From Stenotrophomonas sp. ESTM1D_MKCIP4_1 (GTDB lineage: Bacteria > Pseudomonadota > Gammaproteobacteria > Xanthomonadales > Xanthomonadaceae), in assembly GCF_003086895.1 (NCBI RefSeq), contig NZ_CP026004.1, positions 1,151,663-1,215,662 of the forward strand: a DNA stretch of 64,000 nucleotides, in the 5' to 3' direction. Of this stretch, positions 6,919-25,331 are shown in pieces; position 1 is the stretch's first letter, and each line of letters starts with the position of its first letter. The position numbers and the translations under genes are program-made. Under the pieces are notes generated by a model that saw only the letters and a list, made by a program, of their open reading frames with translations, was not told the origin of the DNA and ran no database searches.

Positions 6919-7199
6919 GTAGAGTCGAGCTTGCTCGACTGCTTTTCGTAGAGTCGAGCTTGCTCGACTGCTTCAACAGCAGCCGAGCATGGGCTCGGCT
7001 CTACCGTTGGGGCAGTCGAGCAACGCTCGGCTCTACCGTTGGGGCAGTCGAGCAACGCTCGACTCTACCGTTGGGGCAGCCGAGCATGGGCTCGGCTCTA
7101 CCGTTGGGGCAGTCGAGCAACGCTCGACTCTACCGTTGGGGCGGCCGAGCATGGGCTCGGCTCTACCATTGGGGCAGTCGAGCAACGCTCGACTCTACC
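6919..7199. repeat. SMAG (GTAG-REP) array with seven tandem 32/33-bp units
   Basis: Two head-on GTAG elements (6919-6940 and 6948-6969, stems AGTCGAGC/GCTCGACT) are followed by seven tandem units starting at 6981, 7014, 7046, 7078, 7111, 7143 and 7176. All of these are in the opposite orientation (ending CTAC) and are joined by the spacer CGTTGGGG. Units alternate between AGCCGAG..CTCGGCT stems with an ATGGG loop and AGTCGAG..CTCGACT stems with an AAC loop. The second unit is a hybrid with a mismatched stem. The array fills the 308-bp gap between the TerC-CBS gene and the metallophosphoesterase. Confidence 0.92.
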
Positions 7200-7222
7200 C
7201 TTTGCAACCTTTGCCCGTCACC

Positions 7223-8380
7223 ATGGCGGGCCCCACGTTATGGATCCGCGCAGTGCTGAGTACGATTGGTTTATTGATGGGCCTGTACGTGGCCTGGCGC
7301 CTGTTCTGGCCGTTGCGCCTGCCGCTGTGGGCCAAGGCCCTGTTGTCGTTGCTGCTGGTTGCACTGGCCGTGCAGCTGCGCATCGTCGCCACGTTCTGGG
7401 GCACGATGGCCTCGCCGGAAATTCCGAAGATGGCCATCGCCGTACTGGCCACCGGCTCCACCGCCGTGCTGCTGCTGGCGCTGGCGATGCTGCTGTTCGA
7501 TGCCGGACTGCTGGCAGCACGCGCGCTGCACCTGCCGCGTGCAGTGTCGGCGTTGCGCGCGCCGTTGCTGCGGCCGCTGGCGGCGGCGGTGGCCCTGCTG
7601 GTCAGTGGCTATGGCGTCAGCCAGGGCATGGCCGTACCCAAGCCGCGGCAGATCGAGGTGGCGATCAAGGATCTGCCGGCGGCCTTCGATGGCTACCGTG
7701 TGCTGCAGCTCACCGACATCCACGCCAGCCGCCTGCTGACCGGCGAGTGGGTGGGCCAGGTGGTGGCCGAGAGCAATGCACTGAAGCCGGACCTGATCGT
7801 CATCACCGGTGATCTGATCGACGGCACAGTGGACGCGCGCCGTGATGATTTCCGTCCGCTGGGTGACCTGCAGGCGCCGGACGGCGTGATCGCCATCACC
7901 GGCAACCACGAGTATTACGCGCAGTACAGCGCGTGGATGCAGGCCTTCCGCGCGGTGCACATGCAGGTGCTGGAAAACAGCCACACCCAGGTGCGGCGTG
8001 GCGATGCAGCGTTGACCATTGCCGGCGTCACCGATCCGGTGGCTGCCCGCTATGGCCTGCCGCAGCCCGACCTGCAGGCGGCCCTGGCCGGTGCCGATCC
8101 GGCGGCGCCGGTCATCCTGCTCGATCATCGTCCGCGCAATGCGGTCGAGGCGGCCGCACGTGGGGTGAAGCTGCAGTTGTCCGGCCATACCCACGGCGGG
8201 CAGATCATCGGCATGGACCAGCTGGTGAAGCGGGCCAACGGCGGTTACGTCTCCGGCCGTTACGAGGTGGATGGCATGACCCTGTACGTCAGCAATGGCG
8301 CCGGCCTGTGGGCGGGCTTCCCCGCGCGCATCGGCGTGCCTTCGGAAATCACGATGTTCACCCTGCGCCGCGCGCGGTGA
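7223..8380 (+). CDS. Membrane-anchored metallophosphoesterase
   Basis: The 385-residue protein has about four N-terminal membrane helices (residues 5-135), then a calcineurin-like phosphoesterase domain. The metal-binding motifs occur in order: LTDIHAS (Asp165, His167), GDLID (196-200), GNHEYY (from 227) and LSGHTHGGQ near the C-terminus. This is the YaeI/YkuE-like group, whose best-known members act on lipids such as UDP-diacylglucosamine or phosphatidyl compounds; the substrate here is unknown. The open frame runs back through the SMAG array, but repeat-derived sequence is not protein, so the ATG at 7223 is chosen. Confidence 0.87.
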   Translation: MAGPTLWIRAVLSTIGLLMGLYVAWRLFWPLRLPLWAKALLSLLLVALAVQLRIVATFWGTMASPEIPKMAIAVLATGSTAVLLLALAMLLFDAGLLAARALHLPRAVSALRAPLLRPLAAAVALLVSGYGVSQGMAVPKPRQIEVAIKDLPAAFDGYRVLQLTDIHASRLLTGEWVGQVVAESNALKPDLIVITGDLIDGTVDARRDDFRPLGDLQAPDGVIAITGNHEYYAQYSAWMQAFRAVHMQVLENSHTQVRRGDAALTIAGVTDPVAARYGLPQPDLQAALAGADPAAPVILLDHRPRNAVEAAARGVKLQLSGHTHGGQIIGMDQLVKRANGGYVSGRYEVDGMTLYVSNGAGLWAGFPARIGVPSEITMFTLRRAR

Positions 8381-8388
8381 TGCCTGCT

Positions 8389-8476
8389 GGGGTCAGAGCC
8401 CATTCCGTGCGGGAATGGGATCCGACCCCGGTCCTTGGGGGTCAGATCCCTTTGCCCGGCAAAGGGCTCTGACCCC
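8389..8476. repeat. Pair of GGGGTCAG-family palindromes
   Basis: Two imperfect palindromes (8389-8429 and 8438-8476) have GGGGTCAGA at one end, TCYGACCCC at the other, and a variable GGGAAUGG- or CAAAGGG-type centre. They lie between the convergent metallophosphoesterase and ferric-reductase-like genes. The second element supplies the stop codon and last residues of the minus-strand gene. Confidence 0.85.
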
Positions 8477-9092
8477 GTGCATGCACACTTCGCTTCAGCG
8501 ACTGCGCGCGCTTGGCGATGGTGCGCACCACGACGGCGGTGAACAGCAGCGCCGAAGGCACGGCGTACCAGAAGTTGCCCGGCACGCGCTTGAAGTACGA
8601 GTAGGTGAACACCGCCGCGATGATCCACATGCCGGTCACGTGCAGGCGACGCCACGCGGTGGGGCCCATGCGCCGGGCAATGCCACGGTGCGAGGTGATG
8701 GCCAGGGCGAGGATGGCGACATAGCCGATGGTGCCGGGCAGATTGGCCAAGGCCGAGCGTGCGGGCCAGAACGCGGCGTTGAGGATGCCGAATGCGGTGA
8801 TCGCGATGGCATGCAGCAGGTGCGAGAACGCGAAGGAGAGGCCGATGATCCGGCGTTCGCGCAGCAGGAAGCGGCTGGTCGGCCCGGGCAGCAGGCTGGC
8901 GAACGAGGATGCGGTGAACGCGGCCAGGAACAGCAGGAACGAGGTGCGCGCCGTCACCCGGATGGCGGCACGGCTGCCTTCTGCCACGTCGGGTTGCAGC
9001 GCGAATGCCGCCAGTGCGAAGGCGATCAGCACCACGGCGATGGCCACGAACAAGCGCCAGCCGTGCAGGAAGGAAGTGTTGGAAACAGCCAT
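8442..9092 (-). CDS. Ferric-reductase-like transmembrane protein
   Basis: A 216-residue integral membrane protein with six predicted helices. Histidines sit in FSHLLHAIAITAFGILNAAFW, ITSHRGIARRMGP and WRRLHVTGMWIIAAVFTY, the spacing expected for a bis-heme ferric-reductase-type transmembrane domain (as in MsrQ or the core of NOX/FRE proteins). No flavin or NAD domain is present, so another protein must supply electrons. It is the last gene of the MNIO operon, 50 bp after the DUF2063 gene with a SMAG element between, so it may be partly uncoupled. The last 13 residues are encoded by a GGGGTCAG-family repeat, which suggests the original C-terminus was replaced or extended. Confidence 0.8.
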   Translation of the reverse strand: MAVSNTSFLHGWRLFVAIAVVLIAFALAAFALQPDVAEGSRAAIRVTARTSFLLFLAAFTASSFASLLPGPTSRFLLRERRIIGLSFAFSHLLHAIAITAFGILNAAFWPARSALANLPGTIGYVAILALAITSHRGIARRMGPTAWRRLHVTGMWIIAAVFTYSYFKRVPGNFWYAVPSALLFTAVVVRTIAKRAQSLKRSVHARGQSPLPGKGI

Positions 9093-9116
9093 GGTCAAAC
9101 CTCGAATCAGATAGGG

Positions 9117-9139
9117 GTAGTGCCGGCCGCTGGCCGGCA
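9117..9139. repeat. Single SMAG element inside the MNIO operon
   Basis: GTAG followed by the palindrome TGCCGGCCGCTGGCCGGCA, between the DUF2063 stop and the ferric-reductase-like start. As a stable stem in the transcript it could trim or attenuate expression of the last gene. Confidence 0.9.
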
Positions 9140-9142
9140 ATC

Positions 9143-9877
9143 TCAGAAGCCGGCCAGCGCCACCAGCACGCCGGCCGCATACAGTTCGCCCAGCACGGGC
9201 GCGGCAACCACGCGCAGTCCATCAGCGGCCACGCCATGCGCCTCGGCCAGCGCCTGCAGGACGTCATCCATGCGCGCACCCTCGTTGCCAAAGGCCGACA
9301 GCAGCGCATACGCCAGCGGTGCCAGTTCCTCGACCTGCAGGTGGTAGCCCTCCACGCGGCGCAGCAGCAGAAGCGTGGGTTCGCTGGCGGGTGCATCGTC
9401 CAGCCCGGCGTCTTCATGCACCGGCCACTGGTAGCCCAGTACCCGCACCAGCGGCGAGAGCACCAGCACGTCGCTGCCCGCAGGCATGGGGTGCAACGGA
9501 TGCCCGGCCTCACGTGCTTCGATGTGCAGCGCCTGCTGCGTGCTTTCGTAGTGCGCCAGCTCCGCCGCCCAGCCGGGCAGCGCGAACGTGTCCTGCACTG
9601 CCAGCCACGCCGCGAACTCGCTGGCGATCTGCGGGAACAGCGGGGTGTGGCAGGCATGCCGCGCGTAGAAGTGCTCGACCAGGCCACGCCAGCGCGTTTC
9701 GCCCAGCAGTTCCCGCAGGCGCGGCAGGCTGCCCGCCAGCAGGCTGTCCAGGCTGCCCATGCACAGGCGACGGTATACCGCCAGCCGGCGTGCCTCGACG
9801 CCTTCAGGGGCGGGCATCGACGGGTCGCGCACATGGTCGGCCCAGCGCTGCTGCAGGGTGGCCAGCGACTCAGCCAT
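9143..9877 (-). CDS. DUF2063 (MNIO partner; BufC/HvfC-like) protein
   Basis: The 244-residue protein begins [19 protein letters not shown] and continues [51 protein letters not shown], the DUF2063 (putative DNA-binding) domain. In characterised systems this family does not bind DNA: it is the partner subunit of MNIO enzymes and helps present the precursor peptide. The C-terminal half, with the histidine/acidic strand [15 protein letters not shown] and a winged-helix-like end, is typical too. Its start overlaps the MNIO stop by 8 bp (ATGGCTGA), indicating coupled synthesis of the two subunits. Confidence 0.88.
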
Positions 9878-10715
9878 GGGCCCGCTCCGGCAGTACCACC
9901 GCGGCCTGGGCCTGGCGGATCTGCGCGACTTCGGCCAGCAGTTCGGCCAGCGGTGGGAAATTGAAGTCGCGTTCCAGCAGGGTGGGGCGCACGCCGATGC
10001 GCGCATAGGCCTCGCGCAGCAGCGCCCAGACCACGCCCTTTACCGGCGCGCCATGGGTATCGATCTTGAAGCCATCGTCTTCGTCGAAGTGGCCGGCCAC
10101 ATGCAGCGATGCAACCCGGTGCGCAGGCACGCGGTCGAGGAAATCGAAGGCGTTGTAGCCGTTGTTGCAGGCGTTGACGAAGACGTTGTTGACGTCCAGC
10201 AGCAGGTCGCAGTCTGCTTCTGCCAGCACGGCATTGATGAAGTCGATCTCGCTCATGTCCGCACCGGGCACGGCGTAATAGGAAATGTTCTCCACCGCGA
10301 TGCGCCGTCCCAGCGTGTCCTGCACCTGGGCGATGCGACCGGCGACGTGGTGCACGGCTTCGCTGGTGAAGGGCAGCGGCAACAGGTCATAGACATGGCC
10401 GCCGGCAGCGCAGTAGCTCAGGTGCTCGCTGTACAGCTGCACTTGGTGCAGGTCGAGGAAGGCGCGCGTCTGTGCCAGCAGGGTGCTGTCCAGCGGGTCC
10501 GGCCCACCCAGTGACAACGACAGGCCATGACAGGTCAGGCGGTGGCGCTCGCTGAGCTGACGCAGCGCGGCACCGTGGGCACCGCCGACGCCGATCCAGT
10601 TGTCGGGCGAGACTTCGAGGAAGTCGATGGCATCGGCGGGCATTGCCAGCAGCTCGTCAATCAGTCCGCGGCGCAGGCCAAGACCGGCGCTGGCAGAGGG
10701 CAGGGGCAGGAACAT
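9870..10715 (-). CDS. MNIO (DUF692) multinuclear iron oxidase, BufB/HvfB-like
   Basis: The 281-residue TIM-barrel protein opens with [19 protein letters not shown] and [14 protein letters not shown], the DUF692 signature. Likely iron ligands are His63 ([11 protein letters not shown]), Glu97-His98 (YSEHLSY), Glu142 (VENISYY), Asp174 with Asn176 (LDVNNVFVN), His205 (LHVAGH), Asp219/His221 (IDTHG) and Glu248. MNIOs use two or three irons and O2 to rearrange cysteine residues of ribosomal precursors; relatives are MbnB, TglH, ChrH, HvfB and BufB. Here the substrate is most likely the adjacent EGKCG-containing EF-hand protein. It lies 54 bp after that gene, with a strong hairpin between. Confidence 0.93.
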
Positions 10716-10735
10716 GCGGGGTACTCCGGGGCCGT

Positions 10736-10758
10736 GGCGCCGCCACGAGGGCGGCGCC
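10736..10758 (-). terminator. Attenuator-like hairpin between precursor and MNIO genes
   Basis: A perfect 9-bp all-GC stem (GGCGCCGCC / GGCGGCGCC, 5-base loop) lies in the 55-bp gap downstream of the precursor stop. There is no T-run, so full termination is unlikely. Such a stem often protects or partly terminates the upstream message, giving more precursor than enzyme. Confidence 0.6.
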
Positions 10759-10770
10759 GGTGGTGGGCAA

Positions 10771-11247
10771 TCAGTCGTGGACGCGGGAGAACAGACCCTT
10801 CGGCATCGGCTTGCCGTGGGCGGTGTAGACGCTGCGCAGGTAGTCGTGCGCTTCCTGTTCGCTGATGAAGCCGTCGTGGTCGGCATCGATGCGATCGAAC
10901 TCCGCCGCGCGGTCGCCTGCCACGGCGTTGAACTCGGCACGCGAGACCCGGCCGTCGTGGTCGCGGTCGGTGCGGGCAAACGAAGCATCGCCACACTTGC
11001 CTTCACCGCACTGGCCTTCGGCCACCTTGGCCTTGCCGGCGGGCTTGCTGGTGCTGGCCTTGTTGGCGCCGCACTTGCCTTCGCCGCACTTGCCTTCGGC
11101 AGCGGCGCTCATGGCCACAGCACTGATTGCCAACGGCTGGACCGCAGCGGCCTGGCCCGCCAGCAACAGCCCTCCGGCCAGGGCGATGCCAATGGCGCCG
11201 ATGCGCGGCAGACGGGAGGCAGAGGGGTTCTTGATCGAAACGGACAT
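10771..11247 (-). CDS. Secreted EF-hand protein with EGKCG repeats; candidate MNIO precursor (metallophore)
   Basis: The 158-residue protein has a long signal peptide (basic start, hydrophobic core [18 protein letters not shown] cleavage site near 35). It then carries EGKCG at 51-55 and 56-60, EGQCG at 77-81 and EGKCG at 82-86. These hold the protein's only four cysteines (54, 59, 80, 85). A C-terminal EF-hand pair follows, with loops at 94-105 (Asp94, 96, 98, Glu105) and 121-132 (Asp121, 123, 125, Glu132). In HvfA and bufferins, cysteines in EGKCG motifs are converted by the MNIO to copper-binding heterocycles; I infer the same here. The fusion to an EF-hand domain is notable. AAGGAG eight bases before the ATG fixes the start. 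Confidence 0.88.
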
Positions 11248-11346
11248 GGTGATGACTCCTTGGGAGTGCACGCAGGGCGTGCGGGATGGACGCCGCGCGG
11301 GGCGGCGGAAAATGAAGGGAGGAAGCGTGTGGAGGAACGTGGTGGA

Positions 11347-11991
11347 TCAGGCGCTGCGGCGACGGCGCAGCTCGTACGCCAGCAGCAGGGCGCCACCGAG
11401 CAGAGAGCCTCCGAAACCGATGCCGGGCAGCATCGCGGCAAGGGGCAGCAGCAGGGCGATCAGGCTGACGCCCCAGCCGAGGCCGTCATCGCCGAGCGTG
11501 GCGTGTTGCCGGCCGGCCAGCAGACGGTCCAGGCTGAGGGTGCCGGCACCGTTGAGGATCAGCGGCAGCAGCATGGCCAGGAACAGCAGCGGCAGCTTGA
11601 AGTTGCCATAGCCCTGGTCGGTGATCGCATAGCCCTGCCAGAGTTCGTCCAGGCTGTTCCACTGGTCGGGCCAGTGCACGGCGGCAATGGCGACGATGGT
11701 CAGCACCCAGAAGATGTAGGCCACCGAACGCGTGGCCAGGCCGAGCAGCAGCATCACCGCACCCACCAGTTCCAGCCACGTGGCCAGCTGCCAGTTCAGC
11801 GAAGCGGGCAGGGTGGAGAACGGGAACGGGAAGCGGCCTTCCAGATCGGCGAACCAGTTCTGCCCGCCCAGCTTCTCGCGGCCGGACTCGAAGAATTCCC
11901 AGGCCAGCAGGGCACGCAGGGCCAGCGGCGAAAGCCAGCGGCCAACGGCGTCCAGGCGCGGGGTGTAGTGGGTAGCGGCGGTGCTGATCAT
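11347..11991 (-). CDS. DoxX-family membrane protein (BufD-like)
   Basis: The 214-residue protein has a DoxX four-helix core: [60 protein letters not shown] and [29 protein letters not shown]. An extra C-terminal helix pair ends in [11 protein letters not shown]. DoxX proteins recur in bufferin/HvfA-type MNIO operons, where they are thought to serve thiol or metal stress at the membrane; the exact reaction is not known. It is the first gene of the operon, about 100 bp before the precursor, with its promoter in the region shared with the divergent hydrolase operon. Confidence 0.87.
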
Positions 11992-12107
11992 GCGGGGTGT
12001 CCTGCGGGCCAGTGGTCGATGGAGGCCATTCCGGGCCACGCAGGTATCGGCAACGTGTGCCGTTGCCCGGGGTTTTGTCAGCCACTGTGGCCACGGCAGG
12101 GGTTTCG

Positions 12108-12259
12108 TACAGTCGGATACAAAGAGGCCGCGTCGGCGCCGCCGCGGCCGTCGCGCGCACACGTGCGGGGAACCCTGTCCACCCGGCAGTGCCGTGCCAT
12201 GGCCGGTGGCCGAATGTATCCAACTGTAGGAACGCGCCGCCGCTCTACAGTCCGGTACA
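12108..12259. promoter_or_regulatory. Three TACAGTYGGATACA motifs in the divergent intergenic region
   Basis: The 343-bp gap between doxX (minus) and the hydrolase operon (plus) has near-identical 14-mers at 12108-12121 (plus, TACAGTCGGATACA), 12215-12228 (minus, TACAGTTGGATACA) and 12246-12259 (plus, TACAGTCCGGTACA). Each is a direct repeat of TACA with 10-bp periodicity, the geometry used by OmpR/PhoB-type regulators binding head to tail. An OmpR-type gene lies in the plus operon, so coordinate control is a reasonable inference. A degenerate fourth copy may exist at 12277-12291. I see no other features in the gap. Confidence 0.6.
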
Positions 12260-12334
12260 ACTCCGCTCCATGCCGAAACAGCAGCGATACACCCGCAGGC
12301 GGAAATGGTCACTCCCAACACCGGAGTGCCACCC

Positions 12335-13126
12335 ATGATCCGCACCACCCTGCTTGCCGCTGCCCTTGCGCTGGGCGCCACCTCTCCCGCCCTCGCCGCG
12401 CAGGCCGATGCCGGCGCGCCGCCCACCATCATCCTGGTGCACGGCGCCTTCGCCGATGGCTCCAGCTGGAACAAGGTCATCACCACCCTGCATGACTGGA
12501 AGCTGCCGGCCGTGGCTGTGCAGAACCCGCTGAGTTCGCTGGCTGACGATGTGGCGGCCACCCGCCGCGCGATTGCCGCCGCACCGGGCAAGGTGGTGCT
12601 GGTGGGGCACAGCTGGGGCGGCACGGTCATCACCGAAGCCGGCAACGATCCCAAGGTGCAGGCGCTGGTCTACGTGGCCGCGTTCGCACCGGATGCCGGC
12701 CAGTCCTCGGCGCAGCAGGGCGAAGGCTTCCCGGTCGGCCCCGGGCTGACCCGCCTGCAGGAGAAGGACGGCTACCTGACCCTGCCGGCCGATGCCATCG
12801 CCCAGGACTTCGCACCCGATGTGATGAAGAAGACCGCCACGCTGCTGTACAGCACGCAGGTGCCGCTGAAGGCGAGTGCGCTGGGTGAAACCGTGACCAT
12901 TGCGGCATGGCGCAGCAAGCCGAGCTGGTATGTGGTCAGCCGTGATGACCGCATGCTCTCGCCGCAGCTGCAGGTCGCCACCGCGCGGCGCATCGGCGCG
13001 GAGCTGCAGTCGATCGGCAGCAGCCATGTATCGCTGCTTTCGCACCCGGCGCAGGTGGCCGACAGCATCCTCGAAGCTGCCGGGGTGAAGCCGGCCGAAC
13101 TGCCGCTGGCCGAGCAGGGGGGCTGA
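12335..13126 (+). CDS. Secreted alpha/beta hydrolase
   Basis: The 263-residue protein has a signal peptide ([21 protein letters not shown]) followed by a short alpha/beta hydrolase. [13 protein letters not shown] provides the oxyanion strand and GHSWGG carries nucleophile Ser93. The late SRDDRMLSP strand likely supplies the acid, and [10 protein letters not shown] the catalytic His. The lean fold without a large cap resembles the plant-esterase/hydroxynitrile-lyase-like group. Substrate unknown; it should act in the periplasm. GGAG lies ten bases before the ATG. It is the first gene of a four-gene unit with a thioredoxin-like protein and a two-component system. Confidence 0.87.
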
Positions 13127-13129
13127 CCG

Positions 13130-13675
13130 ATGACGACGTTGCGTGCCTATACCGTACCGCTGCTGCTGGCCCTGCTGGGTGCCGCTGCGTTGCTGCTGGC
13201 CTGGCCCAGCCCGGAGGCCGGTGCGCAGCCGGCCGAAGCCGCCCCCAGCGCGGGCTTCAGCGGCGGCGGGCCGTGGCACAACAGCCCACCGCTGACCCTG
13301 GAGCAGCTGCGTGGCGAAGTGGTGCTGGTCGAGTTCTGGACCTACGGCTGCAGCAACTGCCTCAACGTCGCGCCGTACGTGCACCAGTGGCATGCACGTT
13401 ATGCCGCGAAGGGCCTGCGCGTGATCGGCGTACACACGCCGGAATTCGCCTATGAAGGGCTGCAGAGCAACGTGCGCCACGCGATCCACCGCCTCGACAT
13501 CCGCTGGCCGGTGGTGCAGGACAACCAGTACCGCATCTGGAATGCGTGGGGCAATCGATTCTGGCCGGCGCTGTACCTGCTCGACCGGCAGGGCCGGGTG
13601 GTCTACCGCCATTACGGTGAAGGCGACTATGCACGTACCGAACGCGAGATCCAGCGCCTGCTGGCCAGCCTCTGA
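13130..13675 (+). CDS. Membrane-anchored thioredoxin/redoxin-like protein
   Basis: The 181-residue protein has one N-terminal membrane anchor (VPLLLALLGAAALLLAWP), so the domain faces the periplasm. A TlpA/DipZ-type thioredoxin fold follows: VVLVEFWTYGCSNCLNVAPYVHQW with the redox pair Cys74-Ser-Asn-Cys77, VIGVHTPEFAYE, and the cis-proline segment RFWPALYLLDRQGRVVYRHYGEGDY. It has the longer insert typical of the C-terminal domain of DipZ. It begins 3 bp after the hydrolase stop, so co-translation is likely. A role in periplasmic thiol or metal stress fits the neighbouring DoxX/MNIO operon but is inferred. Confidence 0.88.
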   Translation: MTTLRAYTVPLLLALLGAAALLLAWPSPEAGAQPAEAAPSAGFSGGGPWHNSPPLTLEQLRGEVVLVEFWTYGCSNCLNVAPYVHQWHARYAAKGLRVIGVHTPEFAYEGLQSNVRHAIHRLDIRWPVVQDNQYRIWNAWGNRFWPALYLLDRQGRVVYRHYGEGDYARTEREIQRLLASL

Positions 13676-13732
13676 GCCGCGCTACCATGGCCGCGCCGCG
13701 CGGCCTTGTCCTCCGCCTCCATCGAGAACGCC

Positions 13733-14473
13733 ATGAACCACGTACCGCACATCCTTGTCGTCGACGATGACAGCGACATCCGCCAGATGCTGGCCGACTA
13801 CCTGCAGCGCAATGGTCTTCGTGTCAGCCAGGCCGATGGCGGCCGCGCAATGCGCGCGCTGATGGACACCCACGCCGTCGACCTGGTGGTGCTGGACGTG
13901 ATGATGCCTGGCGAGGATGGCCTGAGCCTGTGCCGCAACCTGCGTGCGGGCAAGCATCGCGCGGTGCCGGTGGTACTGCTGACCGCGCGCGATGATGAAA
14001 CCGACCGCATCATCGGCCTGGAGATGGGCGCCGATGACTACGTGACCAAGCCGTTTTCCTCGCGCGAACTGCTGGCGCGCATCAACGCGGTGATCCGACG
14101 CACGCAGATGCTGCCGCCGAACCTGCAGGTGACCGAGGCCGGCCGCCAGCTGGCGTTTGGCGAGTGGCGCCTGGATACCACCGCGCGCCACCTGCTCGAT
14201 GCACAGGACACCGCCTATCCGCTCAGCGGCGCCGAGTTCCGCCTGCTGCGGGTGTTCCTCGACCATGCCAACCGCGTGCTCAGCCGCGACCAGCTGCTCA
14301 GCCTTACCCAGGGCCGCGATGCCGAACTGTTCGATCGTTCGATCGATCTGCTGGTGAGCCGTGTCCGCCAGCGGCTTGGCGATGATGCGCGCGAACCGAC
14401 CTACATCAAGACCGTGCGCAGCGAAGGCTATGTGTTCAGCGTGCCGGTGCAGCTGCTGGGGCCGGGGGAATGA
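13733..14473 (+). CDS. OmpR-family response regulator
   Basis: The 246-residue protein has a receiver domain with the acidic pair in LVVDDDSD, phosphoacceptor Asp55 in VVLDVMMPGEDGL, Thr in LLTARDD and Lys in YVTKPFSSREL. A winged-helix OmpR/PhoB effector domain follows, with LSGAEFRLLRVFLDHANRVLSRDQLL and IDLLVSRVRQRLGDDAREPTYIKTVRSEGYVF. It overlaps the histidine kinase by 4 bp (ATGA). It is a good candidate for recognising the TACA-N6-TACA direct repeats at 12108-12259, which would make it a local regulator of both divergent operons. Confidence 0.93.
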   Translation: MNHVPHILVVDDDSDIRQMLADYLQRNGLRVSQADGGRAMRALMDTHAVDLVVLDVMMPGEDGLSLCRNLRAGKHRAVPVVLLTARDDETDRIIGLEMGADDYVTKPFSSRELLARINAVIRRTQMLPPNLQVTEAGRQLAFGEWRLDTTARHLLDAQDTAYPLSGAEFRLLRVFLDHANRVLSRDQLLSLTQGRDAELFDRSIDLLVSRVRQRLGDDAREPTYIKTVRSEGYVFSVPVQLLGPGE

Positions 14474-15783
14474 ACGCCGCCGCGCGCCGCCTGCTGTGGC
14501 CGCGCACCTTGTCCGCGCGCCTGCTGCTGGTGCTGCTGGGCGGGCTGACCCTGGCCCACGCGCTGTCGTTCGGCCTGTTGTTCTACGAGCGCTACCAGGC
14601 CACGCGCAGCATGATGCTGCGCAACCTGGACGAAGACGTGGCAGTAAGCGTGGCGCTGCTGGAACACCTGCCGGCCGACCAGCGCCAGGCCTGGGTGCCG
14701 CGCCTGGAACGCCGGACCTACCGCTACCTGCTGCGCCCGGCGGCGTCCGGCCCGGCGCTTGAAACCGAGCGTGCGCGCCAGGTCACCGCCATCATCGATG
14801 ACAGCCTGGAGCACCGCTATGCGCTGCAGGCACGGCAGGTGGCGCGCCTGCCAGAACGGTTCGAGGTGGAACTGCGCCTGCACGACGGTTCGCCGTTGAC
14901 CATCGAGGTCACGCCATCGGGCCTGCCGCTGGCGCGATGGCTGCCGGCCGTGCTGCTGGTGCAGCTGGCTGTGCTGCTGCTGTGCGCGTGGCTGGCAGTA
15001 CGCCTGGCGTTGCGTCCGTTGCAGCAGCTGTCGCACGCGGTGGAGCATCTGCAGCCGGGTAAAGACGCACCGCGGCTGCCGGAAGATGGCCCGGCCGAAG
15101 TCGGCACCGCTGCGGCAGCGCTGAACGCACTGCAGGCGCGTATCCGTGGGCATGTCAGTGAGCGTCTGCAGATTCTGGCGGCCATCTCGCATGACCTGCA
15201 GACCCCGATCACGCGGATGAAGCTGCGCGTGGAGACGCTGCCTGAGGATGCCACCCAGCAGCGCCTGCTGGATGACCTGGATCACCTCGGCCAGCTGGTG
15301 CGCGAGGGCGTGGCCTATGCGCGCAGCAGCCACGTTGCCAGCGGCGTACCGGTGGCGATGGATCTGGCGGCCTTCCTGGCCAGCGTGGTCGGCGATTACG
15401 AGGACATGGGCAAGCCGGTCTCAGGCGGCGCGCCGTCGGGGCTGACCGTGCAGACCTGGCCGCAGCCGCTGCGGCGGGTGGTCGGCAACCTGGTGGACAA
15501 CGCGCTGCGCTATGCCGGCAGTGCCGAAATCGATGCCGGTCGTGATGCTGCCGGCAGGCCGTGGATCAGCGTCTCCGATCGTGGCCCGGGCATTCCCGAG
15601 GATCAACTGCAGGCCGTACTGGCGCCCTTCCACCGGTTGGAAGGCTCGCGCAACCGCGATACCGGCGGAACCGGGCTGGGGCTGGCCATCGCCGTGCAGC
15701 TGGCGCAGTCGCTGGGTGGTTCGCTGCAGCTTCGCAATCGCGAAGGCGGTGGATTGCAGGCGGTATTGCAGCTGCCGGGGTAG
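14470..15783 (+). CDS. EnvZ-type sensor histidine kinase
   Basis: The 437-residue inner-membrane kinase has helix 1 at about 17-38 and a periplasmic sensor of some 115 residues. Helix 2 is at about 158-178, followed by a HAMP domain (LALRPLQQLSHAVEHL). The H-box is AAISHDLQTPITRMKL with phospho-acceptor His241. The ATPase has NLVDNALRYAG, SVSDRGPGIPEDQL and GGTGLGLAIAVQL. The HDLQTP H-box places it in the EnvZ/RstB-like group. The sensor loop has no cysteines and few histidines, so there is no obvious metal-binding signature. It is the last gene of the operon and is followed by paired palindromic repeats. Confidence 0.93.
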   Translation: MNAAARRLLWPRTLSARLLLVLLGGLTLAHALSFGLLFYERYQATRSMMLRNLDEDVAVSVALLEHLPADQRQAWVPRLERRTYRYLLRPAASGPALETERARQVTAIIDDSLEHRYALQARQVARLPERFEVELRLHDGSPLTIEVTPSGLPLARWLPAVLLVQLAVLLLCAWLAVRLALRPLQQLSHAVEHLQPGKDAPRLPEDGPAEVGTAAAALNALQARIRGHVSERLQILAAISHDLQTPITRMKLRVETLPEDATQQRLLDDLDHLGQLVREGVAYARSSHVASGVPVAMDLAAFLASVVGDYEDMGKPVSGGAPSGLTVQTWPQPLRRVVGNLVDNALRYAGSAEIDAGRDAAGRPWISVSDRGPGIPEDQLQAVLAPFHRLEGSRNRDTGGTGLGLAIAVQLAQSLGGSLQLRNREGGGLQAVLQLPG

Positions 15784-19838: not shown

Positions 19839-21206
19839 TTACATCCAGCCCGGTACCACGAACACCAGCCAGGCCAGCAGCGGACCAAACGCGACCACCA
19901 GGCCGCTGTAGACCAGGAAGCGGCGGAACAGCGTCTCGCGCTCTTCCTTCGCCGCCGAGGCGACCACCAGTGCGCCGTTGGTGGAGAACGGGCTGACGTC
20001 GACGATGGTCGATGACACCGCCAGCGCACAGATCACTCCGGCAGCGCCCAGATGGCCCTGCATCAGGAACGGTACCGCCAGTGGAATGGTCGCGCCCAGC
20101 ACCGCGGCCGACGAAGCAAACGCAGACACGATGCCGCCGACATAGCAGACCAGCAGCGCGCCCAGCAGTGGGATGCCGATGCTGGAAACACCATGGCCGA
20201 TGAAGTCCACCGCGCCGGCATGTTCGAGCACGCCGATGTAGGTCACCACGCCGCAGATCAGCAGCACCGTCGACCAGCTGATGCCATCGACCGCACCCTT
20301 CTGGCTCTGCGGCGAGAGCAGGGCCAGCGCCACCGCCACGGTGATCGACACCAGGCCGACATTGAGGTTGTAGATCAGTGCCGCCACGCCCAGGCCCAGC
20401 AGGCCGATGAGGGTGAACAGACGCTCGCGGGTGAAGCCCACCGCATCCAGCGCGGCCGGATCGTTCGACAGCGTGCCGCCACCGGCAGCGACCAGCGCGC
20501 CGTGGCCTTCGATGGCGAACTGCCGCGACGATGCCTGCGGCCCAGCGGCCACGGCCAGGTCAGCGCCACCCACGGTGCCGGGGGCGGTGATCGAACCGCG
20601 GCGCATCAGCGCGATGCCGCCGAAGGCCAGGAAGCAGATGATCGCCATCATGAAGTTGAAGCCGAGGCTGGTCAGGAACACCGCCATCTCGGTCACTTCC
20701 AGGCCGGCCTTCTGCACCACGCCATTGGTGATGCCGCCGTACACGCTGATCGGCGAGAAGCCACCGGCCTGCGCGCCATGGATCACCAGCAGGCCCATCA
20801 TCAGCGGGTTGATCTTGTATTGCTTGGCAAAACGCAGCGCGACCGGGCCGATGATGGCCACGGCGGCCGGGCCCAGCGCCCCGAAGGCAGTCAGCACGGC
20901 GGTGATCACGAACATCACCCACGGAATGGCCACGATGTGGCCGCGTACGGCTTTCACCGCCCAGTGCACCAGCAGATCGATGGTGCCGTTCTTCTGCGCG
21001 ATGGCGAACAGGTAGGTAATGCCGACCAGGGTCAGGAACAGGTCGCCGGGGAAGCCGGCGAGCACTTCCTTGCCGCCCATGCCGACCCAGACTCCGCCGA
21101 TGATGAAGGCAAGGGCGAAGGCGACCGCACCCATGTTGATGGGCATCGCGGTGGCGACGATGAACATGATCACCAGGCCGATGATCGTTGCGATTTGTGG
21201 ACTCAT
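19839..21206 (-). CDS. MatC-like dicarboxylate (malonate) transporter
   Basis: The 455-residue permease has about 12 membrane helices. The N-terminal 150 residues match the MatC_N family (IIGLVIMFIVATAMPINMGAVAFALAFIIGG, FPGDLFLTLVGITYLFAIAQKNGTIDLLVHW). The rest has the ion-transporter-superfamily hairpin motifs GALGPAAVAIIGPVALRF and the second, symmetry-related segment VSSTIVDVSPFSTNGALVVA. MatC carries malonate in rhizobia. The place directly after mdcH, and the lack of MdcL/M or MdcF-type genes, makes it the likely malonate importer here. GGGAGG precedes the ATG. Confidence 0.85.
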   Translation of the reverse strand: MSPQIATIIGLVIMFIVATAMPINMGAVAFALAFIIGGVWVGMGGKEVLAGFPGDLFLTLVGITYLFAIAQKNGTIDLLVHWAVKAVRGHIVAIPWVMFVITAVLTAFGALGPAAVAIIGPVALRFAKQYKINPLMMGLLVIHGAQAGGFSPISVYGGITNGVVQKAGLEVTEMAVFLTSLGFNFMMAIICFLAFGGIALMRRGSITAPGTVGGADLAVAAGPQASSRQFAIEGHGALVAAGGGTLSNDPAALDAVGFTRERLFTLIGLLGLGVAALIYNLNVGLVSITVAVALALLSPQSQKGAVDGISWSTVLLICGVVTYIGVLEHAGAVDFIGHGVSSIGIPLLGALLVCYVGGIVSAFASSAAVLGATIPLAVPFLMQGHLGAAGVICALAVSSTIVDVSPFSTNGALVVASAAKEERETLFRRFLVYSGLVVAFGPLLAWLVFVVPGWM

Positions 21207-21310
21207 GCGCCCTCCCAGACACGTGACTCGCGTACAGCTTCGATGGTGACCCGCCATCACGGGGTAAGGCGTCGTACAACGTGATGCGTGATACGTGCTG
21301 CTCGAACCCG

Positions 21311-22231
21311 TTACTGCAGCCGGTCCAGCGCGGTGCGGACCCAGGCCGCCGCGCCGTCCAGGCTCTGGAACTCTTCCACCGCGCGCACCTGGCAGCACGG
21401 GTAGGCCGGCGCGACCATGCGCGCCAACGCATTGCCCGGCCCCAACTGCAGGAACACGCGCGCGCCGCGCTCGAAGGCCTGGCGCATCACCTGCGCCCAC
21501 TCGATGGTCTGTGCCAGCTGCGCCGACAGGGTGCGCACCGCCGCCGCGCGATCCCGCACGGGGCGCGCATCGATGCCGGCCAGCAGCGGCACGCGCGGCG
21601 CCTGCAGGGGCGAGGCATCGAGTGCGGCGGCGAACGGGGCCACCGCTGCCTGCAGCAGCGGCGTATGCGCAGGGACGTGCACCGGCAGCGGACGGACCTC
21701 CGCGCCCTGTGCGCGCGCTGCATCGGCCAGCGCCTGCAACGCCTTGCGCGTGCCGCCGACGATGAAGTGGTCCGCGCCGTTGGCGATGGCCACGTGCGCG
21801 CCGTGTGCATCGCACAGCGGTTGCAGGGTGTGTCGTTGCAGCCCCAGCACCGCCTGCAGGCCTGCATCGGCGGGGCTGGCGGCATCCATCAGCTGCGCGC
21901 GCTGTGCCGCCAGCGTCAACGTGGCCGCAGCATCCAGGCCGCCGGAAATGCCATGCGCGGCCAGCTCACCGATGCTGTACCCGGCCACCAGCAGCGGTAC
22001 CGGCAGCGCATCGCGCAGGCCCTGCCAGTGCGCCAGCGTGGCCGCACAGAGCAGCGGCTGCGCAAGCGCGTTGTCGAAGCGCGCCTCGTCGGCGGCAGCG
22101 GCGAAGACATCACGGCCGAGCACGCTGCCCGCAGCCTGCAGTACTTCGCGGCCGGCAGCCAGATCGCGCATGCGATCAAACATGCCCGCATGCTGCGCAC
22201 CCTGGCCGGGGCAGAGCAGGGCAAGGCTCAT
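21311..22231 (-). CDS. mdcH: Malonate decarboxylase epsilon subunit (malonyltransferase)
   Basis: The 306-residue protein is a FabD-type acyltransferase: LALLCPGQGAQHAGMF at the start and the nucleophile elbow GYSIGE with Ser86. HVPAHTP carries the catalytic His, and LQLGPGNALARM is the C-terminal motif. In the malonate decarboxylase complex it loads malonyl from malonyl-CoA onto the acetylated acyl carrier subunit, priming the enzyme. It overlaps mdcB by 4 bp and is the last decarboxylase gene before the transporter. Confidence 0.92.
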   Translation of the reverse strand: MSLALLCPGQGAQHAGMFDRMRDLAAGREVLQAAGSVLGRDVFAAAADEARFDNALAQPLLCAATLAHWQGLRDALPVPLLVAGYSIGELAAHGISGGLDAAATLTLAAQRAQLMDAASPADAGLQAVLGLQRHTLQPLCDAHGAHVAIANGADHFIVGGTRKALQALADAARAQGAEVRPLPVHVPAHTPLLQAAVAPFAAALDASPLQAPRVPLLAGIDARPVRDRAAAVRTLSAQLAQTIEWAQVMRQAFERGARVFLQLGPGNALARMVAPAYPCCQVRAVEEFQSLDGAAAWVRTALDRLQ

Positions 22232-23085
22232 ACAGCCTCCTGCTGCAGCAGGAAGTGGCTGCAGGCCAGCAGGTCCGCACTGCCACCGGGGCTCAGCCGG
22301 CGCGCGACGAAGTCCTTGCCGATGCCGTGCAGGCGTGCCTCCCAGCCGGGAGCGAAGGTGCCACCGCCTGCAATGAATCCGCGTGCCTGCTGCTGGGCCC
22401 AGGCCAGGCCGTCGGCGCCGCCGCGATGCAGCAGGTTGAGATCGTCCACCTGCGCGATCAGCTGCATCAGGGTCTGGGACATCGCCGCGTCGCGCGGCAG
22501 GCCCTGCTGCAGCGCGTGGCGCAGCGTGGGCACGGCCAGTACGCGCAGCACCGGGTAACCGGCGGCGGCCTGCTCGCGCACGCCGGGCACGCCGTGGCGC
22601 AGGCGTGCGCGCTGGCCGGGGCTGGAGGCATCCAGTGGCGCAGCGGCGAAGTCGTTGGCCCAGTGCTGCACGGCCAGGCAGACCTGCGCGGCCGATACCG
22701 CGCGGCCCTGCTCGCGGCGGCAGCGTGCGGCGGCAGCCACCAGCAGGCCAAGGCTGAAGATGGCGCCGCGATGGGTGTTGGTGCCGCCGGTAGCGCGCAG
22801 CATGGCGGTTTCGGCGGCGATGCCCAGCGTGCGCAGCTGCGCGAAGGGCGCATCCACGGCACCGGCACGGGCGATGGCGGTGAAGTAATGGCGCAGGGCG
22901 AACAGGCTGCGCAGGAACGTGCTGGCATCCATGTCGTCATGGCTGCCGGTATCAAAGGGGGTGACCAGGCCCGGCTTGGGCGCACAGGCCAGCTCGGCAT
23001 GCAGGCTGGCGATGGCCAGGCGCCCCAGCCGCGCACTGTCGATGGCGTGTGCCAGGGGGCGGGCAGCATGCGCGAGGGCGTTCAT
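22228..23085 (-). CDS. mdcB: Triphosphoribosyl-dephospho-CoA synthase
   Basis: The 285-residue CitG/MdcB-family protein has the motif set LHAELACAPKPGLVTPFDTGSHDDMDASTFLRSL, ATGGTNTHRGAIFSLGLL and DDLNLLHRGGADGLAWAQQQA. It joins dephospho-CoA and ATP to make the 2'-(5''-triphosphoribosyl)-3'-dephospho-CoA prosthetic-group precursor for MdcC. Starts and stops overlap by 4 bp with both mdcG and mdcH, so the accessory genes are made together. Confidence 0.93.
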   Translation of the reverse strand: MNALAHAARPLAHAIDSARLGRLAIASLHAELACAPKPGLVTPFDTGSHDDMDASTFLRSLFALRHYFTAIARAGAVDAPFAQLRTLGIAAETAMLRATGGTNTHRGAIFSLGLLVAAAARCRREQGRAVSAAQVCLAVQHWANDFAAAPLDASSPGQRARLRHGVPGVREQAAAGYPVLRVLAVPTLRHALQQGLPRDAAMSQTLMQLIAQVDDLNLLHRGGADGLAWAQQQARGFIAGGGTFAPGWEARLHGIGKDFVARRLSPGGSADLLACSHFLLQQEAV

Positions 23086-23723
23086 GCGGCGGCTCCGGTG
23101 GCAGCGAACAGACGCTCGCGGGCTTCCAGCGCGGCACCTTCCAGGCGCTTCACCAGCACCTGGCGGCTGCCACCCGCGTACTCGCGCCAGTTCACGGCGC
23201 CCCCGTCGGCCAGGCACAGTTCGCCATCCACACGACGGCCGTGTTCGTGCTCCCAGCGCTGCAGGCACGCGACCAGTGCATCGGCCTGCGGGCCGGTGTC
23301 CACCTGCCACAGCAGGTCGATGTCCGATGCCGCGTGCACGTAGGGCAGGCCGCTCAGGTGTTGCCAGGCGAAGGCGCCGAACACACGGGCCGGCGCAAAG
23401 CGCGCCAGCGCGTGCAGGGCGGCCTGCCAGTCGCTGGCAACTCCGGCATCAAGTACGTTTTCCAGGGCGGGAGGCAGCTGCTGGCGCAGCACGTCGCGCA
23501 GCGGCACGCGCAGGGCCAGGCGCTGCTTGCCTTCGCCCGGCGGCAGCGGCACCCCCAGGCGCAGGCGCGGATCGGGATCATCCACCGCACGCCGGGCCAC
23601 CATGGCCGGCAGGCCCTGCGCGAACCATGCCGCCAGGCGTGGTTCGTGCGCGGCCACGTCGGCCCGCCAATCGGCATGCGCCGAAAGCCAGACCAGCGTG
23701 TGGCGGGCGGGCCGGTCAGGCAT
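23082..23723 (-). CDS. mdcG: Phosphoribosyl-dephospho-CoA transferase (holo-ACP synthase)
   Basis: The 213-residue protein attaches the prosthetic group made by MdcB to the serine of MdcC. It has the MdcG nucleotidyltransferase features: an N-terminal domain (RHTLVWLSAHADWRAD) and a C-terminal domain holding VFGAFAWQHLSGLPYVHAASDIDLLWQVD with the two catalytic aspartates (SDIDLL). VDGELCLADGGAVNWREYA is typical too. The start overlaps the mdcE stop by 8 bp. Confidence 0.92.
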   Translation of the reverse strand: MPDRPARHTLVWLSAHADWRADVAAHEPRLAAWFAQGLPAMVARRAVDDPDPRLRLGVPLPPGEGKQRLALRVPLRDVLRQQLPPALENVLDAGVASDWQAALHALARFAPARVFGAFAWQHLSGLPYVHAASDIDLLWQVDTGPQADALVACLQRWEHEHGRRVDGELCLADGGAVNWREYAGGSRQVLVKRLEGAALEARERLFAATGAAA

Positions 23724-24426
23724 CGCCGTGCGCCACCTTGGTGGCGACATCCGCAGCGAGGGCGCGGCCACCGCGCTGTGCACCCCGTGCGGCGCGCAGG
23801 TCACCCTCGCTGGGCGTGCGCAGGGCCTGCAGCAGGTGCTGGGCAAGGTCGCCCTCCCACAGCGATTCCACCGCGCCCATCGCCACGTAGTTGGCCACGC
23901 CCGGCGCGAACACCGGCGAGCTCTGGCTCAGCGCCTGCAGTTTTTCCAGCGGTTGCTTGGTCACCCTTGCCATCGCGCGCAGGTCCATCACCCGCACCTG
24001 CGCATCGGGCAGGGCATGGATGTGGTCGGCCATCAGGCCGAAGGACAGGAAGCCGCCACTCACCGATTCGCCATAGACCAGGGTGACCAGGCGTGCGCCA
24101 CGGCGGCGGGCCAGGTCGATGGTCTGCGCGAGATGGGCGAAGTAACCATTGATGCCCAGCAGTTCATCGCGGCGCGCCAGGCGCTGGCCCGCAGTGTCGG
24201 CCAGCATCACGATGGGCCGCTGCGGATGCGTGGCGGTGCTGGCGAGCACGGTTTCAGCCAGCGCCAGCGCATGGTCCACGCCCACTTCAATGCGGTCGGT
24301 GGTGCCGATGACCGTCACCTCGCCATCCTCGGTGGTGGCCGTGCCGGTCAGCACCGAATCACGGATGTCGATGCGATGTCCGCGGGGAAACAGGGCGTCG
24401 AGCAGGGTCTGCAGCGGTGCGCTCAT
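23716..24426 (-). CDS. mdcE: Malonate decarboxylase gamma subunit
   Basis: The 236-residue protein has a crotonase/carboxyltransferase fold. RPIVMLADTAGQRLARRDELLGINGYFAHLAQTIDLARRRGARLVTLVYGESVSGGFLSFGLMADHIHAL has the oxyanion-type loops of decarboxylase-competent carboxyltransferase homologues. Together with MdcD it decarboxylates the malonyl thioester on MdcC, leaving acetyl-S-ACP. It overlaps mdcD by 4 bp. Confidence 0.92.
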   Translation of the reverse strand: MSAPLQTLLDALFPRGHRIDIRDSVLTGTATTEDGEVTVIGTTDRIEVGVDHALALAETVLASTATHPQRPIVMLADTAGQRLARRDELLGINGYFAHLAQTIDLARRRGARLVTLVYGESVSGGFLSFGLMADHIHALPDAQVRVMDLRAMARVTKQPLEKLQALSQSSPVFAPGVANYVAMGAVESLWEGDLAQHLLQALRTPSEGDLRAARGAQRGGRALAADVATKVAHGDA

Positions 24427-25331
24427 GGCAGGCTCCGGTCGGCGGTGGCAGCGAGGAAGGCGTCGGTATCCAGCAGTGGCAGGCGCTCCGGATCGGCAAT
24501 GCCTTGGCGGGCCCAGATCTCCAGCCCGTCGCGGCACTCGCCCCAGGCTTGTGCGCGCGCCGTCAATGCGGCGTGGCGCGCCTGCAGGACGCTCAAGGCA
24601 GCGTCGGTATCGGTGCTGGTGGCGTCGGCCTGCAGCGCCTCGGCGGCCGCGCGGGCGAACGCATCGATGGCATCGGGTACCAGCACCTGCGCCTGGTCGA
24701 TCAGATAGCGGTGCTTGCCGCCGGTCACGCGCCACACCAGGGCGCGGTCGCGCGCGTCGAACTCCTCCACGCCGCGCACGGTCTCGATCACTTCCGGCCC
24801 GGACAACGACAGCCGGCCTTCTTCGGACATGATGACCGTGGTGCAGCAGCGGGCGACGATGCCCATGCCGCCGAAGGCACCGTTGCCGCTGCCGATCAGC
24901 GCGACGACCGGCACGCCGGCCGCGCGTGCGCCCAAGGTGGCACGCATGATTTCGGAAATGGCGATCAGCCCGGCGTTGGCTTCATGCAGGCGTACGCCGC
25001 CGGTATCGAGCAGCAGCAGTACGCCGTCGGGGCGGGTTTCCGCAGCGCGACGCAGCAGGCCGGTCAGCTTGGCGCCGTGCACTTCGCCCACGCCGCCGCC
25101 CATGAATTCACCCTGTTGTGCGGCCAGCAGCACGCGTCTGCCCTGCAGCGTGGCTTCGCCGACGACGATGCCATCGTCGAAGGCGGCCGGCTGGTCCAAC
25201 TGGGCCAGATGCGGGCTCATGACCCGCTGTGCGGGGCCGAGGAATTCGTGGAACGAACCGGCGTCGACCAGCCCGGCAATGCGCGCGCGTGCATCCGCTT
25301 CGTAGAAGCTGTGGCGCTGTACGTGGCTCAT
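24423..25331 (-). CDS. mdcD: Malonate decarboxylase beta subunit
   Basis: The 302-residue carboxyltransferase-type subunit has FLGPAQRVMSPHLAQLDQPAAFDDGIVVGEATLQGRRVLLAAQQGEFMGGGVGEVHGAKLTGLLRRA, then LLLLDTGGVRLHEANAGLIAISEIMRA and GSGNGAFGGMGIVARCCTTVIM. These order exactly as in characterised MdcD. It forms the decarboxylase active site with MdcE. ATGA overlaps join it to mdcC upstream and mdcE downstream. Confidence 0.93.
   Translation of the reverse strand: MSHVQRHSFYEADARARIAGLVDAGSFHEFLGPAQRVMSPHLAQLDQPAAFDDGIVVGEATLQGRRVLLAAQQGEFMGGGVGEVHGAKLTGLLRRAAETRPDGVLLLLDTGGVRLHEANAGLIAISEIMRATLGARAAGVPVVALIGSGNGAFGGMGIVARCCTTVIMSEEGRLSLSGPEVIETVRGVEEFDARDRALVWRVTGGKHRYLIDQAQVLVPDAIDAFARAAAEALQADATSTDTDAALSVLQARHAALTARAQAWGECRDGLEIWARQGIADPERLPLLDTDAFLAATADRSLP

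Follow-up and report, generated by a model that had tools for sequence, protein, structure and literature searches.

A BfmRS-adjacent operon in Stenotrophomonas probably modifies a small secreted EF-hand protein to hold copper as well as calcium

What does a cell do with a small secreted protein that joins the EGKCG cysteine motifs of copper-binding peptides to a pair of EF-hands? The question is raised by a locus in the window – the whole 64-kb stretch of the Stenotrophomonas sp. ESTM1D_MKCIP4_1 genome that we analysed, numbered from its first nucleotide – where five minus-strand genes (11991-8442) encode, in order of transcription, a DoxX protein, the EGKCG/EF-hand precursor, an MNIO (DUF692), a DUF2063 partner, and a ferric-reductase-like protein. 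A sequence-only reading, made without database searches, had noticed the first four genes on one strand and proposed that they make a modified metal-binding protein. All four are there, and the products pass the cut-offs of the HvfX, HvfB, and HvfC families; beyond them we observe the fifth gene, a regulator pair, and promoter boxes. We conclude that the operon probably modifies the small secreted protein to hold copper as well as calcium. We think it likely that the operon is of the captophorin/oxazolin class and is switched by a BfmRS-type system, and that its periplasmic precursor combines thiooxazole copper sites with EF-hand calcium sites.

The precursor gene (10771..11247, minus strand) encodes 158 amino acids, which curated models and motif reading divide into a signal-peptide-like start, an EGKCG-type pair, a linker, a second pair, and two EF-hands. 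By eye, its ATG at 11247 is preceded at 8 nt by a Shine-Dalgarno-like AAGGAG, and its stop lies at 10771. The only cysteines, at residues 54, 59, 80, and 85, are arranged as two pairs (EGKCG starting at 51 and 56, EGQCG at 77, EGKCG at 82), and two canonical 12-residue EF-hand loops start at 94 and 121; both the motif positions and the fusion are as the sequence-only reading had them. The EF-hand_5 match scores 37.1 bits (cut-off 25.9) and the KCGExKCG domain 36.8 bits with the KCGExKCG_twice model (cut-off 19.5). The earlier word 'secreted' agrees with an N-terminus that looks like a signal peptide by eye. In an AlphaFold2 model (mean predicted local distance difference test score 62.4), the EF-hand pair is modelled confidently (about 78-91) and the EGKCG region is disordered (<50). 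A fold search returned general EF-hand matches only, none at E<=0.001.

A fusion of this kind had been left open as a possible novelty, and it has in fact been described. Antoine et al. (2025) report, as a second type of Buf_EGKCG/oxazolin precursor, a short EGKCG domain that continues C-terminally into two EF-hand_5 domains; the authors show one example, propose that such proteins act in copper and Ca2+ homeostasis, and draw attention to EfhP (PMC12452194), which is PA4107 of Pseudomonas aeruginosa (PMC4053335). The window precursor has the features of this type – EGKCG motifs without 17-residue repeats, N-terminal to two EF-hands, with co-encoded MNIO and PME-type 1 (DUF2063) genes – as judged by motifs and curated models, with a signal peptide read by eye. 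It is a member of the EGKCG/oxazolin group, a known kind of protein, and the fusion is not new. The first family call, bufferin/HvfA-type, holds for its HvfA/oxazolin-type half, which the curated models support, and fails for the DUF2282-type bufferin (Buf1), since the precursor has no DUF2282 match at E<=0.1. A lanmodulin-like lanthanide-binding EF-hand protein was also rejected (18.8 of 135 bits).

The other four genes, all on the minus strand, are assigned with curated models. The MNIO (9870..10715) matches PF05114 at 340.3 bits and the HvfB-family model NF003818 at 409.8 (cut-off 360), and 3bww is its top-scoring solved structure. The gene for the HvfC-family DUF2063 partner (9143..9877; PF09836, 76.4 bits; NF050145, 201.4, cut-off 142) overlaps with its 5' end the end of the MNIO gene (9877 versus 9870). 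DoxX, an HvfX-family membrane protein of 214 amino acids encoded by the first gene (11347..11991), scores 67.8 bits with PF07681 (cut-off 23.6) and 137.4 with NF050144 (cut-off 80). The last gene (8442..9095) encodes a ferric-reductase-like transmembrane protein (PF01794 Ferric_reduct, 36.3 bits, cut-off 28); MsrQ was considered as its identity and rejected, at 35 of the 130 bits of that equivalog. A promoter scan of 8350-13760 found no sigma-70-like site.

We consider the operon not a chance assembly because the precursor has 1101 homologues at E<=0.001 and occurs full-length in 27 of 91 Stenotrophomonas genomes (74-100% identity), in each of which an MNIO lies directly downstream. Some precursor match exists in 84 of the 91 genomes; outside the 27 and one further genome, G012, the matches are, where looked at, partial, and consist of EGKCG repeats or other EF-hand proteins. 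At least one MNIO is encoded in 79 of the 91 genomes and two in 26, all within the 27 – counts from which we take a second captophorin locus to be widespread in the genus. A class-wide EF domain profile at E<=1e-8 matched 9 of 369 sampled genomes: two with the window-type operon (G000, G015), three with 'sandwich' precursors (EGKCG-EF-EF-EGKCG), and four with EF-hand proteins lacking EGKCG.

A scan of species genomes with two peptide patterns yielded 132 relatives, and we took the best 80 together with as much as 6 kb of flanking DNA (complete for 73 loci). These loci (59 from Pseudomonas, 12 from Stenotrophomonas) overlap in part with the 27 genus genomes and are not independent, because most come from these two genera. 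Near the precursor we find MNIO in 69, DUF2063 in 69, DoxX in 41, a ferric-reductase-like gene in 33, a regulator of at least 65% identity in 36, a redoxin in 27, and an alpha/beta hydrolase in 15. All 36 regulator-bearing loci hold MNIO and DoxX, and 32 hold the ferric-reductase-like gene; among the 44 loci without the regulator the counts are 33, 5, and 1. The DoxX match is only partial in one locus, L071 (G046), where DoxX may therefore be shortened.

Conservation extends over both halves of the precursor. Aligning the window protein with the best 120 of the 1101 homologues (n=121) shows conservation of >=95% for both EGKCG pairs, for most EF ligand positions, and for the junction C-G-D-A-S-F-x-x-T-D; the exceptions are residue 79 (K in 90%; the Q of the window protein in 5%) and positions 3 of the EF loops. 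We also measured spacing in 201 sequences (these 121 and the 80 locus precursors, partly overlapping), of which 195 could be parsed. The step between cysteines inside a pair is almost always 5 and that between pairs ranges from 11 to 61, whereas the last cysteine precedes the first Ca2+-ligand aspartate by 8 residues in 195 of 195. All of these are near relatives, and the constancy is partly selected, because DASFxxTD is contained in one of the two search patterns behind the 80 loci. The fixed 8-residue step suggests that the EF-hand and cysteine sites are structurally coupled; we read the terminal cysteine as part of the EF-hand unit.

The simplest alternative is an ordinary copper-sequestering oxazolin whose EF-hands serve as a periplasmic folding or stability domain and have no second function. 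In its favour, precursors without EF-hands occur with the same enzymes, including one (L003) in the window's own genome, so the EF-hands are dispensable for the class. On a midpoint-rooted tree of 106 MNIO rows, the window MNIO falls within a clade of 28 rows that also takes in Stenotrophomonas and Lysobacter antibioticus (99/98), and EF-hand and EF-less loci are intermixed elsewhere. The label changes three times on this tree as computed, or twice, on our own reading, if L149 is counted as an EF-hand locus; a score threshold typed it as type 1, yet it holds a sandwich EF-hand precursor. Against a passive domain stand the retention of most Ca2+ ligand positions and the exact junction, which in the four sandwich relatives has its own distance, 5 residues by eye. 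We regard the stability-domain explanation as possible, on the doubtful side.

A second alternative inverts the emphasis: the product would be mainly an EfhP-like calcium sensor or signalling protein, with EGKCG cysteines that sense iron or redox state, or that play a minor part, and with copper incidental. Kayastha et al. (2022) report a dissociation constant of 13.7 uM for Ca2+ and a predicted periplasmic location for EfhP (PMC9132961). Burch-Konda et al. (2024) report that efhP deletion hindered Ca2+ regulation and that the efhP promoter responds to Ca2+ and Fe; they noticed the EGKCG repeats and proposed iron sensing (PMC11559002). The conservation data cut both ways: the EGKCG cysteine motifs and most EF ligand positions are retained to about the same degree. 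Sandwich relatives, which carry EGKCG on both sides of the EF-hands, also speak against a mere sensor. They comprise L031 (G012, from the genus search), L145 (G102), L149 (G335), and L151 (G170), and an MNIO lies in the flank of all but that of G170.

The MNIO, moreover, stays linked to the precursor or present in the genome. Eleven of the 80 loci, all Pseudomonas (L107-L112, L118, L134, L135, L139, L141), have no neighbouring MNIO, and all 11 genomes encode one elsewhere. Loss of cysteines might have been expected in such orphans, and we rejected that expectation: each keeps 2-8 cysteines in motifs. Because the cysteines are kept and an MNIO exists elsewhere in every case, this natural experiment does not discriminate between the readings. 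We judge a mainly calcium-sensing product unlikely, and return to a modified protein with two kinds of metal site.

How is the operon controlled? Divergent to it, on the plus strand, lie genes for an alpha/beta hydrolase (12305..13126; PF12697, 75.7 bits), a redoxin or TlpA-like thiol protein (13130..13675; PF08534, 46.9 bits), an OmpR-family response regulator (13706..14473), and a sensor histidine kinase (14470..15783), possibly in one transcript. The response regulator is the reciprocal best hit of the regulator at the efhP locus of P. aeruginosa PA7 (72% identity both ways; next best 50% and 55%), and the kinase is 54% identical to the kinase there. These comparisons identify the regulator pair encoded at 13706-15783 as orthologues of BfmRS, the name BfmR following from the gene order reported for PA4101-PA4107 (PMC4918941, PMC4148453). 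The kinase recurs at >=72% identity in exactly the 27 genus genomes with a full-length precursor and in none of the 64 others. Six of those 64 (L154-L159) have a related pair (response regulator about 82% and kinase 61-64% identical, with a redoxin gene nearby) that lies away from any full-length precursor, and the 15-17 kb examined around it hold no exact BfmR-type box.

In P. aeruginosa, BfmR recognises the consensus TACAA-N3-GATACA (PMC8025907). Using the pattern TACA-N4-GATACA, we found two exact matches between the divergent operons: TACAGTCGGATACA (12108..12121, plus strand), 116 bp 5' of the DoxX ATG and opposite in orientation to the operon, and TACAGTTGGATACA (12215..12228, minus strand), 76 bp 5' of the hydrolase gene and opposite in orientation to it. 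Both carry G at position 5, where the published consensus has A. A mismatch scan added a third box with one mismatch, TACAGTCCGGTACA (12246..12259, plus strand). The two exact boxes, against 0.01 expected in the window, are also the only two in the 4.48-Mb genome, where the backward control pattern occurs once. The window thus holds both an orthologous regulator and a BfmR-type box in the promoter region.

The boxes recur at related loci. We counted 98 exact boxes in 69 of the 80 loci (five shuffled sets gave 0, 1, 0, 0, and 0), 96 of them within 400 bp 5' of a locus gene, and 9 of the 11 orphan loci keep one. In 59 loci, the gene that opens the precursor's unit has a box no more than 400 bp away. 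Where that gene is the precursor (47 loci), the nearest box is opposite in orientation in 46, at 111-113 bp in 22 loci and 152-212 bp in 25. Where it is DoxX (12 loci), 11 loci have the box at 114-115 bp and the twelfth has it at 133 bp, the script having favoured the opposite-orientation box if both orientations were present; it missed the boxes of L071, the locus with the partial DoxX match. Counted anywhere in the locus, boxes occur in 12 of 12 Stenotrophomonas, 52 of 59 Pseudomonas, 1 of 4 Lysobacter, 2 of 2 Pantoea-labelled, 0 of 1 Bordetella, 1 of 1 Cupriavidus (away from locus genes), and 1 of 1 Paucimonas loci.

Boxes as such are not unique to the operon across the genus, an idea we rejected because at least one exact box occurs in 73 of the 91 genomes. 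The distinctive mark is the opposite-strand pair, single boxes being common: read by eye, two boxes on opposite strands within 300 bp occur in 23 of the 23 operon genomes read (of 27) and in 1 of the 64 others. That one, G075, has its pair before RR2, a paralogous regulator, near its captophorin locus. That the two-component system is a mere syntenic neighbour, the operon answering to another copper regulator, is quite improbable: boxes away from captophorin operons and the related pairs without precursor or box in six genomes would suit it, whereas the exact co-occurrence of kinase and precursor, the near-exclusive box pairs, the similar box distance (111-115 bp) in Stenotrophomonas and many Pseudomonas, and the direct binding reported for BfmR in P. 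aeruginosa (PMC8025907, PMC4148453) all oppose it.

The three strongest P. aeruginosa BfmR regions in chromatin immunoprecipitation sequencing (ChIP-seq) are reported to be the promoters of pa4107, pa4103, and bfmR (PMC8025907). Binding to the PA4107-4105 and PA4103-4104 promoters is on record, and no gene is activated more by BfmR than efhP (PMC8025907, PMC4148453). Activation has been demonstrated, by others, in P. aeruginosa alone; for the window we infer it from orthology and the boxes.

Taken together, these observations point to the following sequence of events. The BfmRS-type system next door would switch the operon on through the TACA-N4-GATACA boxes in the shared divergent promoter. 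The precursor would be made with a Sec signal peptide, and the DUF2063 partner would present its EGKCG pairs to the MNIO. The MNIO would then convert Cys54, 59, 80, and 85 to 5-thiooxazoles, as demonstrated for HvfA, FonA, and NgoA. After Sec export, Cu(I), or a soft metal akin to it, is predicted to be bound by the 5-thiooxazole thiolates and Ca2+ by the EF-hand pair; the product would be a protein that sequesters metal and is stabilised by calcium. As a guess, redox handling of the metal at the inner membrane might fall to DoxX and the ferric-reductase-like protein.

Several points weigh against this account. Modification, copper binding, and regulation of the window protein are argued from its relatives, and the claim of a modified metal-binding product, right in its family call, meets an EF-hand-subtype literature in which EfhP is known as a Ca2+ sensor and its EGKCG cysteines are linked to iron, not copper (PMC9132961, PMC11559002). 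In 21 of the 80 loci, PA7 at efhP among them, our script found no exact box at 400 bp or less from the first gene. RR2 is itself preceded by a box in 5 of the 5 other genomes examined (L161-L165), which were chosen for having boxes in such places. With boxes before RR2 and elsewhere in the genus, box identity alone does not name the regulator. In L162 and L163 a further box stands upstream of the adjacent captophorin MNIO, at a distance of about 1 kb, and related regulators may on this evidence serve both captophorin operons in the genus. At the RR2 locus of the window's genome (L160) no exact box occurs; a match that precedes RR2 (L160:6078) deviates at one position.

A further such point concerns the leader. 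A QGY motif or variant, found with a loose pattern N-terminal to the first EGKCG in 66 of the 80 related precursors, is missing from all 12 Stenotrophomonas, one Lysobacter, and one Pseudomonas; in the window precursor the stretch concerned is residues 36-50 (11098-11142). Because QGY is absent in the Stenotrophomonas clade, recognition by the partner protein may differ there. Insulation from the paralogous operon was considered as an effect of the loss and found no support: S. tumulicola (L073, probably G089), the sole operon genome with one MNIO, also lacks QGY. FonBC is reported to modify a two-repeat but not a one-repeat peptide and to tolerate A, R, and T at repeat position 3 (PMC13097082). 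In favour of the account, the pairs of the window precursor fit this substrate rule; Q is not among the tolerated residues named (PMC13097082).

A broader and more tentative idea, which we would not yet bet on, is that BfmRS was ancestrally dedicated to EF-hand captophorin operons and that the P. aeruginosa virulence regulator is an expanded one-operon metal switch. BfmS may then sense the periplasmic copper, thiol, or calcium state, and EfhP may be a thiooxazole-modified Cu/Ca protein with its sites coupled through the CGDASFxxTD junction. To our knowledge, no stimulus of BfmS has been named, and one paper searched for it gave none. If our account of the operon is right, copper, hypochlorite, and calcium become stimuli of BfmS that can be tested, and EfhP produced in the absence of its MNIO pair would not carry the modified cysteines of the native protein. 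The Stenotrophomonas version, with two exact boxes in the genome, would be a simple test system. The account connects work on MNIO/thiooxazole metallophores with that on the EF-hand protein EfhP and on the BfmRS regulator. Papers on EfhP and on BfmR refer to one another, and EfhP is cited in the MNIO survey of 2025.

Elsewhere in the window, short repeats resembling intergenic repeat elements were seen by eye at 6960-7260 and 8380-8480. Minus-strand genes at 19839-24735 form, by eye, what we take to be a malonate decarboxylase and transport cluster.

Among known systems, the second type of Antoine et al. shares with the window operon a short EGKCG domain, two EF-hands, and a gene group with MNIO, DUF2063, and DoxX. 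Ferric-reductase genes are reported there in small numbers of biosynthetic gene clusters, counted over the whole EGKCG group (PMC12452194), and the sandwich architecture was not encountered in the parts of that survey covered. Its main text mentions neither BfmR nor a two-component system (PMC12452194), and BfmR is absent from both MNIO surveys checked, that one included. Nor did BfmR appear among the listed literature matches on MNIO, ribosomally synthesized and post-translationally modified peptides (RiPP), DUF692, bufferins, or thiooxazole, a search outside which most subscription journals lie. Conserved BfmRS-type control is therefore the part not found in the MNIO surveys checked.

The captophorins – HvfABCX of Haemophilus influenzae, fontiphorin FonABC, and gonophorin – have EGKCG repeats and the HvfB, HvfC, and HvfX families in common with the window. 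Gadgil et al. (2026; PMC13097082) and a 2026 preprint (PMC13419390) report that their modification is a 5-thiooxazole, not an oxazolone-thioamide, and report copper binding; EF-hands have 0 occurrences in these two papers. Reported for such relatives are a mass loss of 8 Da for two sites and absorbance at about 305 nm (PMC13097082). The window precursor differs in having two EGKCG pairs plus an EF-hand pair, and it reaches 30.8 of the 95 bits of the full-length HvfA equivalog NF050188. Closer to home, the EF-less EGKCG operon L003 of the window's genome has a precursor, MNIO (G000:C1:1457837), DUF2063, and DoxX; it differs in lacking EF-hands, in gene order, and in having no exact box in L160. 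Within this L003/L160 region (G000:C1:1443000-1464500), some 8 kb separate the captophorin locus from the paralogous BfmRS-like pair (54% and 42% identity).

The nearest counterpart is EfhP of P. aeruginosa. According to Sarkisova et al. (2014), efhP (PA4107) is predicted to share an operon with genes for DUF692 and DUF2063 proteins (PMC4053335); DUF692 is absent from the two later EfhP papers (PMC9132961, PMC11559002), and the link between MNIO and BfmRS is implicit in the P. aeruginosa papers. A P. aeruginosa 'DUF692 RiPP' iModulon is reported to go up with N-acetylglucosamine (GlcNAc), NaOCl, and added metals including copper (PMC9023270); it may or may not be PA4103-4107, because PA7 has two MNIO genes, and we did not use it as evidence. 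The precursors are homologous (cluster P0076, 62% identity over 87%), and PA4103-PA4107 with bfmRS comprise the same MNIO, DUF2063, DoxX, ferric-reductase-like, and regulator-pair genes. The window differs in having a single operon, with DoxX first and the ferric reductase last, and in having 2 exact boxes in its genome against 174 BfmR regions by ChIP-seq in P. aeruginosa (PMC8025907), which are different kinds of count.

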